From positions 1 through 26,281 of IMG/VR virus record IMGVR_UViG_3300025070_000196: a stretch of 26,281 bases of DNA; one strand, written 5' to 3'. Made by a program: the position numbers and the translations under genes. The notes beneath the pieces are model-generated. The model did not search any database. It was not told the DNA's origin and saw only the letters and a program-made list of their open reading frames with translations. Source of the stretch: a virus. Positions within the stretch are counted from its first letter, which is position 1. Every line of letters begins with the position of its first letter. Positions 43 to 7,086 of the stretch are shown here, one piece after another.

Positions 43-810
43 TTACCTTGCACGCTTGGCACTCCGCTTGGCTGCTGCAAATCTACGACCAAAATTTCTG
101 TTGAATGCACCTTTGGCGAACCGTTGACTGTCCTCATAAAAACTAAACTGCTTCGGCACGTTCAAGCTGCGTTGCTCAAGCAGATACAAACGCTTCAATG
201 GGTAACGCTTCTTCGTGCGGCGTTCCAATATCATCTGCTGACCACCCACCGTCTGTTTAAACGCCTTCGGTCTGTCCAACACTGTGCGTGGTGCATTGCG
301 GTTATACCCTGCACGACCGCGCACTGGTGGTCTGTCTGCGGCTGGTATCGCTATGCTGCGGCCATTAGCGTGCTTCAAGCCACCAACAGCCAGACGTTGC
401 AGATAGTCTTTGTGCATCGCGCCTGTGGGATGGTTCTGCACTATCGACCGCAGTTTCTTCTTTGTCGCGCGGTTGTTACCGCGTATAGGCATCATCGCTG
501 CCTTCATAAACGATTTGTTCTTAGCATCCACATCGCTTGGCCATACACGCTCAATGGTGTTGCGGCGTGTCTCAAACGCTGCATCGTTCAATGCTTGTGA
601 CATAGCAAACGGCATCTGGTTCTTGCCAAACGCATCAACAGCTTTGGCAAAAGCTGGCAAGTTGCTTGTGACGTTCACTGACATCGACCCTGCCGCTGCC
701 TGTGCTACTGCCCCGCGATCCACGCCACTGCGCAATGCGCCACTGATCGCCTTACCGACGACCATACGCCCGAAAAATGATAGTGGTGCTGCTAATAACT
801 GTATCGCCAT
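43..810 (-). CDS. Putative minor tail / tail-completion protein, gpZ-like
   Basis: This 255-residue basic protein starts at ATG 810 and overlaps the stop of the upstream gene as TAATG, which implies translational coupling. The middle (about residues 45-110) resembles the opening of lambda gpZ: a helical stretch with a run of small residues, then positions rich in Arg and Lys. The C-terminus is strongly basic (FGRRFAAAKRSAKRAR). gpZ-type proteins act late in tail completion, before the tail joins the head. The similarity is weak and judged by eye. On the circular map the gene lies directly upstream of cos and terS, away from the main tail genes, which is unusual for a tail gene but compatible with late expression. 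Another Arg-rich virion protein is possible. Confidence 0.5.
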   Translation of the reverse strand: MAIQLLAAPLSFFGRMVVGKAISGALRSGVDRGAVAQAAAGSMSVNVTSNLPAFAKAVDAFGKNQMPFAMSQALNDAAFETRRNTIERVWPSDVDAKNKSFMKAAMMPIRGNNRATKKKLRSIVQNHPTGAMHKDYLQRLAVGGLKHANGRSIAIPAADRPPVRGRAGYNRNAPRTVLDRPKAFKQTVGGQQMILERRTKKRYPLKRLYLLEQRSLNVPKQFSFYEDSQRFAKGAFNRNFGRRFAAAKRSAKRAR

Positions 811-3087: not shown

Positions 3088-3774
3088 TTACACATCAGCA
3101 CCCACTTTTTTTAGTTCGGCAATCACATCCGGTCTGTTTTGCTTGTAATATGTACGCAAACCATCACCCATTTCCTGCCATTGCTCTAAGCTGACCATTC
3201 TGCGCTGTGGCGGTGTCCATTCAGTAGATTGGCTGTTAAACGCTCTAGAATGCCCACTGACGCGCTTTGTCTTGTTTTTGGCATCTCGCATACACCAGTT
3301 GCGCCAAAACGCCTGTACGTCCACATATGCGGCTTTATTGCCGTTTTGCTGATCCCACATTCTGATTGCTTGTAAGACCTCACCGCCATTTAGGCCTTTA
3401 TCAGCCGCATAGGCCAGATCTTCATCTGATGGCGTCCAATCGCAAACTTTGGTTTTTCTATTTTTATTAATTTTAGTATCTTTTAGTTTATGGTTGTCAC
3501 TGTGACAGGGGTGGGTAGTCAGACTGACTAGGGTATACTGTGATGATTTACCTGTACGGTGGGTCACTGTGACCAACCCCTCATCAACCAGCTTTTTAAT
3601 TTTCCGGCGCACTGTCGCTTCGCTTGCACCCGTAAAACGCGACAAATACCCTGCCGATGGCCACGCAATGCCACTATCGGGGTTTGAACAGTTGGCCAGC
3701 GCAATAAAAACCAGCTTTTCTAGTGGGTCATCCATCGGCGTTGTAAATGCTATTTTTAACGCTTCAATGCTCAT
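3088..3774 (-). CDS. HTH replication-initiation-like protein
   Basis: This 228-residue protein starts at ATG 3774, with GGAG 7 nt upstream; a TTG one codon earlier is less likely. Residues 1-85 form a winged helix of the HTH_36 type, with a start like lambda-O-type proteins (DPLEKLVFIALANCSNPDSG, then WPSAGYLSRFTGASEATVRR). After a basic linker, the C-terminal part has DWTPSDEDLAYAADKGL and AFWRNWCMRDA, a pattern common in phage DnaT-like replication proteins. Known relatives bind the phage origin and load host helicase. This is the only plausible replication initiator here, so the phage probably uses host polymerase, primase and helicase. It overlaps the upstream gene by 11 bp. Confidence 0.7.
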   Translation of the reverse strand: MSIEALKIAFTTPMDDPLEKLVFIALANCSNPDSGIAWPSAGYLSRFTGASEATVRRKIKKLVDEGLVTVTHRTGKSSQYTLVSLTTHPCHSDNHKLKDTKINKNRKTKVCDWTPSDEDLAYAADKGLNGGEVLQAIRMWDQQNGNKAAYVDVQAFWRNWCMRDAKNKTKRVSGHSRAFNSQSTEWTPPQRRMVSLEQWQEMGDGLRTYYKQNRPDVIAELKKVGADV

Positions 3775-4030
3775 CAATTATCTCCAATGTCAGTGCCGCA
3801 TAGCCAATGATGTCCAACAGACTGTCAACGTGCTTGCAGTCGCTGTTTGCCAGCCGTGACAGCTTCATTGCGATCATCATCGCCCCAAACTGCTCCGGCG
3901 AAATGTCTTTGCCAGCGATCATCGACATCATCTGGCTGGTCTGTGTCCAGTTTTGCCGCAGATCGCCATAGCTTTCGCCACGCTGCTTCAGTATGGCTTG
4001 CACATTTTCCAATGCTTTAGAACGGTTCAT
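3764..4030 (-). CDS. DUF6378-type small phage protein
   Basis: This 88-residue protein matches the pattern I know for DUF6378: RGESYGDLRQNWTQTSQMMS, then ISPEQFGAMMIAMKLSRLAN, then DSLLDIIGYAAL. The family is common beside phage replication and nucleotide-metabolism genes and is predicted to be all-helical; its biochemical role is not established. ATG 4030 has GAGG upstream. Its 3' end overlaps the replication-initiator gene and its 5' end overlaps the nuclease gene, so it belongs to the same transcript. Confidence 0.75.
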   Translation of the reverse strand: MNRSKALENVQAILKQRGESYGDLRQNWTQTSQMMSMIAGKDISPEQFGAMMIAMKLSRLANSDCKHVDSLLDIIGYAALTLEIIDEH

Positions 4031-4439
4031 TTAACACCTCTAACACCTTAAACTGCTCAATCGGCACTTCGGCCATCAACCCATAATCACGCTCAATCCC
4101 ACGGTCGCGTCTGCCGCCTATAGTCGTCAGGAAATCCACCGCGAAGCTGCAATAACCGACCCGATCCATCCATCGCACGATCAAAAACGTGGGTATGCCG
4201 GTTTCAAACGCCACCTGCCGCGCATAAATCATTTTGTGCAAATGTATCAGTGACGTTTTATAGCGGTTCATATTGAACGTGCGGCATTTAATTTCCGCAA
4301 ACGCAGATATGTTGCCATCACGCAACAGAGCAAAATCAAGCTGACAATATTGTGGCAATTTGACCGGCGTGACCTTCCACTTTTCGGCCACTTTTGACAT
4401 CGTTATCATTTCCAGCTTCAGGTTTTCACTGGTTTCCAT
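4017..4439 (-). CDS. PD-(D/E)XK nuclease-fold protein
   Basis: This 140-residue protein shows the nuclease core LDFALLRDG followed by AFAEIKCR, with Asp35, Glu49 and Lys51 as the likely metal-binding and catalytic residues. A helix with HKMIYARQVAFETG and a strand TFLIVRWMDRVGY follow, as in Holliday-junction-resolvase-type folds. I chose ATG 4439, which comes 1 bp after the preceding stop and follows a GGGGG run. An ATG at 4460 has no ribosome-binding site. The target (junction, end or flap) cannot be read from sequence. It lies beside another PD-(D/E)XK gene, with one small gene between them. Confidence 0.68.
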   Translation of the reverse strand: METSENLKLEMITMSKVAEKWKVTPVKLPQYCQLDFALLRDGNISAFAEIKCRTFNMNRYKTSLIHLHKMIYARQVAFETGIPTFLIVRWMDRVGYCSFAVDFLTTIGGRRDRGIERDYGLMAEVPIEQFKVLEVLNEPF

Positions 4440-5239: not shown

Positions 5240-6082
5240 ATGAAACGGGAAATCGGAAAAGAGTGGCGTGACGCTGACCTGACACACCTTTCTGTCAGCC
5301 AGCTAAATCGCACGCCTGCATATTGGATTTACGCATATTTGTATCTGCGTGATGACCGCAAAAACATAACTGTCGGGGAAAACGCCGCAGTCGGCACAGC
5401 AGTGCATAACGGCTTGCAGTCAATCGTCTGCCACGGTCAGGATATCACTGATCAGATCTTAGCAGCACAGATTGCGTTTGATTTCCACGATGCTAATCAG
5501 GATGCCGCAAAGCGCGAAAAATATCGTGACTGCATACCGGATATGATCCGCAACGGCATCGACATATTGACCGAATACGGCTTTACCGGCGCGGTTGATG
5601 AAGAACGCATTGAAACGTGGCTTGATGGCGTCAACGTGCCGCTGATCGGCTTTGTTGACCTATTGGTGCCGGATACGATGTTTTGTGAAATAAAGACCAA
5701 AGCACCGCGCAAAACAAAGCTGCTGAAAGATGGCACGCAGGGTTGGGCGAAAGCGACCCTGCCAAAAGCACCGGAAAAAGCGCACGTTGCACAGGCAGCG
5801 ATCTACAATTACGCGCTGCAAGTGACGCCATCGATCTGCTATGTGACCGATCACGATGCGGTGATGTTTACGCCATTTAATTGTGACGAATTGAAAGCTG
5901 ACGCACTGGCGTATGCTGTTGAAGATATGCGGCAAAAGGCATTGATCCGGCAGAACCTGTTGCGGGTCAGCACCGATCCGAAAGTGCTGGCCAGTTTTAC
6001 TGATCCAGATTGGGGTCATATGTATCAGTGGAAAATTGAAACCGAATATTTAGAAAAGGCGAAAAAACTATGGAAGCTGTAA
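5240..6082 (+). CDS. RecB/Cas4-like PD-(D/E)XK exonuclease
   Basis: This 280-residue protein carries the full RecB-family nuclease signature: GTAVHNGLQ (His56), LIGFVDLLVPD (Asp140), FCEIKTK (Glu150, Lys152) and AQAAIYNY (QxxxY, Gln185 to Tyr189). Such phage proteins take the place of lambda Exo, resecting DNA ends for an annealing partner, and here the next gene is an ERF protein. No four-cysteine iron-sulfur cluster is visible. I chose ATG 5240; a GTG at 5222 is possible, and neither has a strong Shine-Dalgarno. It is the first gene of the rightward operon and overlaps the next gene by 13 bp. Confidence 0.82.
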   Translation: MKREIGKEWRDADLTHLSVSQLNRTPAYWIYAYLYLRDDRKNITVGENAAVGTAVHNGLQSIVCHGQDITDQILAAQIAFDFHDANQDAAKREKYRDCIPDMIRNGIDILTEYGFTGAVDEERIETWLDGVNVPLIGFVDLLVPDTMFCEIKTKAPRKTKLLKDGTQGWAKATLPKAPEKAHVAQAAIYNYALQVTPSICYVTDHDAVMFTPFNCDELKADALAYAVEDMRQKALIRQNLLRVSTDPKVLASFTDPDWGHMYQWKIETEYLEKAKKLWKL

Positions 6083-6648
6083 AACTTGACAAAGCATTGA
6101 GTGATTTCCGCAATGCGGCAACGCTTGGCAAATCTGGCAAAAACCCGATGTTCAAAAGCCAATACAGCACGCTTGGTGATGTGCTATCTGCGCTGAATAA
6201 AATATCTGAATATGGTTTAGCGTTTAAGCAGTATTTCAGTGATGATTGTTTGGTCACAACTGTGTCGCACATCGAAACCGGCGAAAAGTTTGACAGTGCC
6301 ATACCGATCCGGCCAGAAAAGAACACACCGCAGTCATACATCAGTTGCGTGACGTATTTGCGCCGCGCCAGTTTAATGACGATGTTCGGATTGAATGCCG
6401 ATGATGATGATGGTAACTTGGCAAGTGGCAGTGGCGCGGCCTCCTCCCGTCCGCAGCCTATGCCAAAGGCACCGGCAGTCGCTCCCACTTCGGCTGTCGG
6501 TGCCGCCTTCCCAAACATCGAAAAAGAATTGCAGCAATGCAATAATGCGCGTGATGTCAACGCGCTTTACACCAATCTGGTGCGTGCGCGTGACGTGACG
6601 CCAGATGAAATTGAAAAAATGCGTATTAGAAAAGAGGAATTAAAATGA
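6070..6648 (+). CDS. erf: ERF-family single-strand annealing recombinase
   Basis: This 192-residue protein has the typical ERF arrangement: NPMFKSQYSTLGDVLSAL near residues 25-45, GLAFKQYF and VTTVSHIETGE, then the strongly conserved SYISCVTYLRRASLMTMFGL followed by an acidic patch (NADDDDGN). Residues 120-150 form a Pro/Ala-rich linker and a short helical C-terminal domain follows. ERF proteins pair complementary single strands; in P22 this lets the genome circularise or recombine. The upstream nuclease and downstream SSB-like genes complete a recombination cassette. Confidence 0.88.
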   Translation: MEAVKLDKALSDFRNAATLGKSGKNPMFKSQYSTLGDVLSALNKISEYGLAFKQYFSDDCLVTTVSHIETGEKFDSAIPIRPEKNTPQSYISCVTYLRRASLMTMFGLNADDDDGNLASGSGAASSRPQPMPKAPAVAPTSAVGAAFPNIEKELQQCNNARDVNALYTNLVRARDVTPDEIEKMRIRKEELK

Positions 6649-6908
6649 ACGATTATGATGATACAAATCGGGGCGCGATCTTCAAAAACGACAAAACATC
6701 TGACAATCAGCCAGACTATACCGGCAAGATCAATGTCGATGGCGTGGAAAAGCGAATTGCGTTGTGGATACGCGAAAGCGCAAAAGGCACCAAATATATG
6801 TCAGCAGCTATCAGCGATCCACAGCCGCCGCAAAGCCAGCCACAAAGCCAGCCGCAGTCGCAGCCGGTAACATTGGCACAAGCTGTCGATGATGCGATCC
6901 CGTTCTAA
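6645..6908 (+). CDS. Small OB-type/DUF736-like protein with SSB-type C-terminal tip
   Basis: This 87-residue protein begins with a short beta-rich domain (NRGAIFKND, PDYTGKINVDGVEKRIALWI, GTKYMSAAI) that resembles DUF736-like phage proteins and small OB folds. A Gln/Pro/Ser linker follows (PQSQ repeats, residues 59-74), and the last six residues are DDAIPF. E. coli SSB ends DDDIPF, and that tip binds many repair proteins. This linker plus acidic tip strongly suggests a phage single-strand binding protein that recruits the host's SSB partners. ATG 6645 has GAGG 7 nt upstream and overlaps the erf stop as ATGA. Confidence 0.7.
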   Translation: MNDYDDTNRGAIFKNDKTSDNQPDYTGKINVDGVEKRIALWIRESAKGTKYMSAAISDPQPPQSQPQSQPQSQPVTLAQAVDDAIPF

Positions 6909-7086
6909 AAAACCAACGCGCCGGATGCCACGCCTTGAGCGTTGCATCTGGTGTGAAAAAGATGTGGATCTAAACGGCAACGATTGGGTCTGTGATGGCA
7001 GCAAACAAGTGCTGCACGTTGACTGCTTTAATGACAGGTTAGGGATTATAAATGCAAATCGACAAAAACATACCGCTGCCACCTAA
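6889..7086 (+). CDS. Small Cys/His zinc-binding protein
   Basis: This 65-residue basic protein has CIWC (residues 19-22), a further Cys near 35, and HVDC near 43-46: a C-x2-C...C...H-x2-C set like half of a LIM or treble-clef finger. It overlaps the SSB-like gene by 20 bp and the next gene by 35 bp. The start is uncertain (ATG 6889, 6892 or 6925); none has a good Shine-Dalgarno. A nucleic-acid-binding accessory role in the recombination operon is inferred from position. Confidence 0.5.
   Translation: MMRSRSKKPTRRMPRLERCIWCEKDVDLNGNDWVCDGSKQVLHVDCFNDRLGIINANRQKHTAAT

Follow-up and report, generated by a model that had tools for sequence, protein, structure and literature searches.

Is the small protein encoded directly after the ERF annealase in this DNA the phage's own single-stranded DNA-binding protein (SSB), or is it an unrelated protein that has borrowed an SSB-like tip? 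The window, which is the whole stretch of DNA analysed, is a virus record of 26,281 bases, and the protein, here called mini-SSB, has 87 residues (MNDYDDTNRGAIFKNDKTSDNQPDYTGKINVDGVEKRIALWIRESAKGTKYMSAAISDPQPPQSQPQSQPQSQPVTLAQAVDDAIPF) and ends in VDDAIPF. Its core, linker and tip are listed with the neighbouring genes in Table 1. An earlier note on this DNA took the protein for a mimic of bacterial SSB whose tip could draw host partners to phage DNA. The SSB-like build and the idea of a partner-recruiting tip are upheld by the conservation of the tip throughout the family, by the ordinary SSBs that take the same gene slot in related phages and by the finding of no other SSB in the window, while the notions of an unrelated tip borrower and of an OB fold are not. 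The protein is better read as the phage's small SSB.

Table 1. Positions of mini-SSB, its parts and the adjacent genes in the window
Feature	Position	Strand	Basis or remark
RecB/Cas4-like nuclease	5240..6082	+	phrog_1706 E 7e-11; ATG 5240, GTG 5222 also possible
ERF annealase	6070..6648	+	PF04404 E 3e-13; Erf-like annealase phrog_155 E 6.5e-23
GAGGA, ribosome-binding-like site, 6 nt before mini-SSB ATG	6634..6638	+	sequence alone
mini-SSB gene	6645..6908	+	87 aa plus stop; phrog_18154 E 2.5e-12
Core, residues 1-58	6645..6818	+	AlphaFold, conservation
Predicted strands of core, residues 10-14, 25-31, 34-44, 50-57			AlphaFold
Linker, residues 59-81, PQSQ repeats	6819..6887	+	low model confidence, no conservation
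SSB-type tip DDAIPF, residues 82-87	6888..6905	+	conservation
Next ORF, 65 aa, cysteine-containing	6889..7086	+	begins within mini-SSB tip codons

The ERF annealase and RecB-like nuclease that the earlier note had placed directly upstream are borne out by the PF04404, phrog_155 and phrog_1706 matches. The ERF stop (6646-6648) and the mini-SSB start overlap in an ATGA at 6645-6648, and this overlap, together with the GAGGA site, suggests that ERF and mini-SSB would be translated in a coupled manner. The next ORF starts at an ATGATG in the tip codons and overlaps mini-SSB by 20 nt.

Among the families of PHROGs v4, mini-SSB matches phrog_18154 over residues 4-54 and phrog_7364 with an E value of 2e-9, and both carry the name 'single strand DNA binding protein'. 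By profile these are the same protein family, and the members examined bear the tip, although the match of the window protein is mainly confined to its first 54-56 residues. The SSB name is an annotation, and no experimental or biochemical study of any member was found in the open-licence literature. A tblastn search gave 42 phage records and five plasmids, and scans of viral contigs from five different members gave 292 family ORFs, of which 172 are distinct with a complete C-terminus. A distant member is found at one Herminiimonas locus, and no relatives of the window protein were found in 84,980 bacterial and archaeal genomes. The family is widespread and already labelled as ssDNA-binding; since PHROGs and several phage records annotate it so, this assignment is not new. 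The bacterial SSB profile PF00436 does not match the window protein at E values up to 1, nor does it match elsewhere in the window, and phrog_112, the gp2.5/Enc34-type SSB, is absent both from the PHROG matches of the protein and from the window. The resemblance of the core to DUF736, which the earlier note had remarked on, is real: Pfam DUF736 (PF05284) aligns with residues 12-62 (E 5e-4) at 20.4 bits, just under the gathering cut-off of 22.1. The mini-SSB family is a distant relative of DUF736. In the open-licence literature searched, DUF736 is mentioned in passing in two papers. A protein of the Caballeronia plasmid pSBC1_4 (L090 2270-2767) that is named DUF736 has the tip EDEDIPF and matches phrog_18154.

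The tip is real and far beyond chance. The final Phe, for which a survey of relatives had been proposed, is conserved in 166 of the 172 distinct members, and 164 of them end in PF, compared with 12 of 693 other ORFs of at least 200 residues in the same loci. Several of these 12 are helicase-like proteins with the same kind of tip. When the set is thinned to less than 85% core identity, terminal PF is still present in 46 of 53 members, and three of the seven exceptions are extensions rather than losses, keeping DDDIPF or DDEVPF ahead of one to five extra residues (DDDIPFS, DDEVPFS and DDDIPFAMEWR). All ten complete named phages examined, whose hosts include Salmonella, Burkholderia, Acinetobacter, Erwinia, Proteus, Alteromonas and Microcystis, have the tip, for example as FDDDIPF, LDDDLPF or DTDTIPF. 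The frequency of the commonest residue averages 0.61 in the core and 0.19 in the linker and reaches 0.96 and 1.0 at the last two positions. The PQSQ linker of the window protein is not conserved in the family.

It could be argued that such a tip is a side effect of common descent or of the downstream start codon that overlaps it, since the start codon of the next ORF in the window lies within the tip codons and since the window's clade, where this overlap occurs, shows almost no variation in the tip DNA. This explanation was rejected for gene overlap and is extremely improbable as a whole, because 89 of the 96 members without a downstream overlap also end in PF, with synonymous change free and all Pro and Phe codons in use, and because the linkers have diverged beyond recognition. 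The conservation of the tip under free codon choice, next to such linkers, therefore indicates strong selection on the final two residues at the protein level.

That the mini core performs the task of an SSB core is argued chiefly from its natural exchange at the same place, with the tip kept in the best case. In several freshwater phage contigs, an ordinary OB-fold SSB sits in the mini-SSB slot between flanks that are up to 95% identical. In the clearest type of swap, the start codon and the tip are common to both genes and the core alone is different. The canonical SSB of one such locus, L297 (PF00436, E 7e-42), ends in RSGPAIEGADEDVPF, and the mini-SSB of its counterpart, L178, ends in RSAPAVEGADEDVPF. 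Upstream, the two loci are 95.0% identical over 1,497 nt through position +5 of the gene, which takes in the ribosome-binding site and the start codon; downstream, they are 90.6% identical over 1,469 nt from 48 nt before the gene end. Between these flanks lie unrelated cores of 352 nt (OB-fold, L297) and 190 nt (mini, L178). The same arrangement is found in L313, a different strain that is 90.9% identical to L297 over 3,226 nt, and, with more diverged flanks, in L316, L317 and L318-L322, where the upstream homology ends at or near the start codon. A canonical SSB (E 2.5e-19) also occupies the mini slot in L306/L307, after an ERF that is 62% identical to that of the mini-SSB-bearing locus L140. 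Related phages show that an ordinary OB-fold SSB core can take the place of the mini core without loss of the tip. Core identity to the window protein is about 45-54% in the swap clade, and no swap was observed in the window's own clade, which counts against the reading of the window protein as an SSB.

The record that holds L297, IMGVR_UViG_3300028027_000073 (L252, L297, L314), is 52 kb long and has two ERF genes at a distance of about 39 kb from each other, one with a mini-SSB and one with a canonical SSB; two strains may have been joined in it. On its own, this record is insufficient to establish the swap. An assembly artefact was rejected as the source of the swap, since the distinct strain L313 and other contigs show the same. 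In L309, an ERF related to the one in L140 is followed directly by a different small protein (3627-3875; weak phrog_18187 match) that ends in DDDDIPF and may represent a fourth core with this tip.

Phages with mini-SSB seldom have another SSB. PF00436 is found in two of 40 IMG/VR records holding mini-SSB, while ERF is found in 24 of them, and neither PF00436 nor the gp2.5-like phrog_112 is present in the ten complete named phages, all of which have mini-SSB. The two records with both a mini and an ordinary SSB, one of which is the 52-kb record, count against reading the protein as an SSB, and the absence of other SSBs is supportive rather than statistical evidence.

A third core is seen in the closest isolated relatives of the window by terminase (62% identity), which are roseobacter phages; the window phage, too, probably infects a roseobacter. 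All three related roseophages are without mini-SSB and carry a gp2.5/Enc34-type SSB (phrog_112), ending in LDDALPF or DFDDEIPF, beside a PD-(D/E)XK nuclease. Since this nuclease has no detectable similarity to that of the window, the arrangement is a parallel and not a one-to-one swap, and no ERF is annotated in these phages. The Enc34/T7 gp2.5-type SSB (PF10991, PF21265, phrog_112; PMC5686142) is, like mini-SSB, a phage SSB with an acidic C-terminus, but it has about 200 residues and its core is unrelated to the mini core. PHROGs names phrog_112 as both ssDNA-binding and annealing. It may be, at somewhat less than even odds, that the tip rather than the DNA-binding core is the conserved part of a hub in which at least three unrelated cores have been exchanged, namely the ordinary OB-fold SSB, the gp2.5/Enc34 type and a sheet of about 58 residues that would be new as an SSB fold. 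The swap of the core beneath a kept tip and the sharing of the tip by unrelated cores appear to be new within the open-licence literature searched, which yielded no paper describing a mini-SSB with a tip or a core swap of this kind.

The parallel with the bacterial SSB (PF00436, E. coli type) lies in the overall build, a core and a variable linker followed by an acidic DDxIPF tip ending in Phe, and in the exchange of the two at the same gene slot. The bacterial core, however, has about 105-110 residues compared with about 58, the cores have no sequence match, and the OB fold of the one is set against four predicted strands in the other. The AlphaFold model of the window protein has these four β strands, with pLDDT values of 85-92 at most core positions and a tail of low confidence, and a second family member is predicted to have the same four. 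Structure prediction, which had been suggested as the check for an OB fold, does not support one: neither the two models nor the searches of the PDB gave a confident OB match, Foldseek found nothing in the PDB at E below 0.4 for either model, and pieces of Enc34 SSB were short, with E values of 1.6-3 only. By sequence, no solved relative was found. With VIA-align 2, Borrelia Pur-alpha (3nm7) ranked first for both models, with weak scores of Z 4.8 (3.5 Å over 50 residues) and Z 4.1 (3.1 Å over 48 residues) that unrelated folds tie, and chains of PC4/Sub1 lie lower, near Z 3. Pur-alpha and PC4/Sub1 proteins bind ssDNA, and their type is recognized by a curved four-stranded sheet followed by a helix. 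Kinship with them is not claimed, since the top rows are weak and tied with unrelated folds, and a PUR/PC4-like sheet for the mini core is a lead only, drawn from the models. A search of viral models gave matches that include a 'Single stranded DNA-binding protein' of a Vibrio phage and a DUF736 protein. The want of a confident match between the mini core and solved ssDNA-binding folds counts against its role as an SSB, as does its near-neutral charge (median net charge +1).

These two features, together with the strongly conserved tip, would suit a decoy, in which ssDNA is left uncoated by the protein and the core serves as a scaffold, while the free tip would vie with host SSB for its partners, such as exonucleases or RecQ/RecO, and so protect phage DNA. 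A decoy, however, would have no need of a core that trades places with genuine OB-fold SSB cores in one slot, nor would it need an annealase and an exonuclease as neighbours, and its core positions are conserved, with P23, G27 and W41 invariant in 53 diverse members. These points make the decoy quite unlikely.

A recombination exonuclease and an annealase frequently precede the gene of the small SSB. Among 52 diverse members, the two genes upstream include Erf in 13 cases, Sak in nine and RecT in one, and exonucleases (YqaJ, RecE-like and others) in about 15-20. The frequent position directly after Erf or Sak, and the translational overlap with ERF in the window, could also mean that the protein is an annealase accessory whose core contacts ERF or duplex intermediates and whose tip brings host SSB-coated partners to ERF. 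This is unlikely, since an ordinary SSB can replace it in its slot and since both core and tip are kept in members that lie beside DNA polymerase and helicase genes and have no adjacent annealase. In PMBT28, SH-Ab 15497 and Bm1, for example, mini-SSB adjoins a DNA polymerase and an adenylosuccinate synthetase, and no annealase is annotated beside it. The position next to a DNA polymerase and a PurZ-like adenylosuccinate synthetase is that of mini-SSB at the loci L083, L085 and L088. This synthetase marks phages that are known or likely to use 2-aminoadenine, and the phages of these three loci probably do so.

That the protein is the phage's own miniature SSB, with a core that binds ssDNA, a linker that presents the tip and a tip that docks on a partner, is very probable; the binding of ssDNA and the partners are what we infer. 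The small β core would bind ssDNA that the neighbouring nuclease and replication lay bare, and the linker, which is predicted to be disordered, would hold out the acidic-hydrophobic tip to a partner able to read it. In HK620, deletion of the last six residues of the SSB (NDYPPF) cuts Sak4 recombineering 10-fold (PMC5928155). Because this phage SSB, also encoded beside an annealase, needs its tip for stimulation of the adjacent protein (PMC5928155), the adjacent ERF is the first candidate partner, and the tip would load it onto the covered strand in the way that the HK620 SSB tail loads Sak4. The HK620 SSB is likened to mini-SSB by description; it is distantly related to the SSBs of N4, Lc-Nu and PhiAT3, and its partner Sak4 is RecA-like, whereas the mini-SSB of the window adjoins ERF. 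No tip-reading site was identified in ERF, which counts against this reading of the protein as an SSB. The E. coli SSB tip (SSB-Ct) recruits at least 17 partners (PMC10018359), and host readers of SSB tips would form a second, compatible set of partners. By the HK620 precedent, the adjacent annealase is at least as likely a candidate tip reader as the host partners RecO, PriA or exonucleases that the earlier note had in mind. Since members without an adjacent annealase keep the tip, host readers or other phage proteins probably serve there.

If this reading is true, a very small SSB with a recruiting tip exists across phages of proteobacteria and cyanobacteria, and the loci with the same gene start, the same tip and a different DNA-binding core are a natural swap experiment. 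The part of an SSB that phage recombination machinery needs would then become directly testable, annealase-based genome editing would gain a compact partner, and some DUF736-like proteins would gain a functional reading.

SSB-like tips also occur on other proteins. In phages that carry mini-SSB, helicase/primase-like proteins of L110 (1870-2868) and L113 (2759-3697) have tips such as NFDDKLPF and NFDDQLPF, and tip-bearing proteins of this kind are also present in L112, L115, L116 and L118; the families concerned are phrog_5482, phrog_239 and phrog_18375. In L293, a 168-residue protein (3596-4099) with a weak match to phrog_6015, 'single strand DNA binding protein', ends in KPLDDEIPF.
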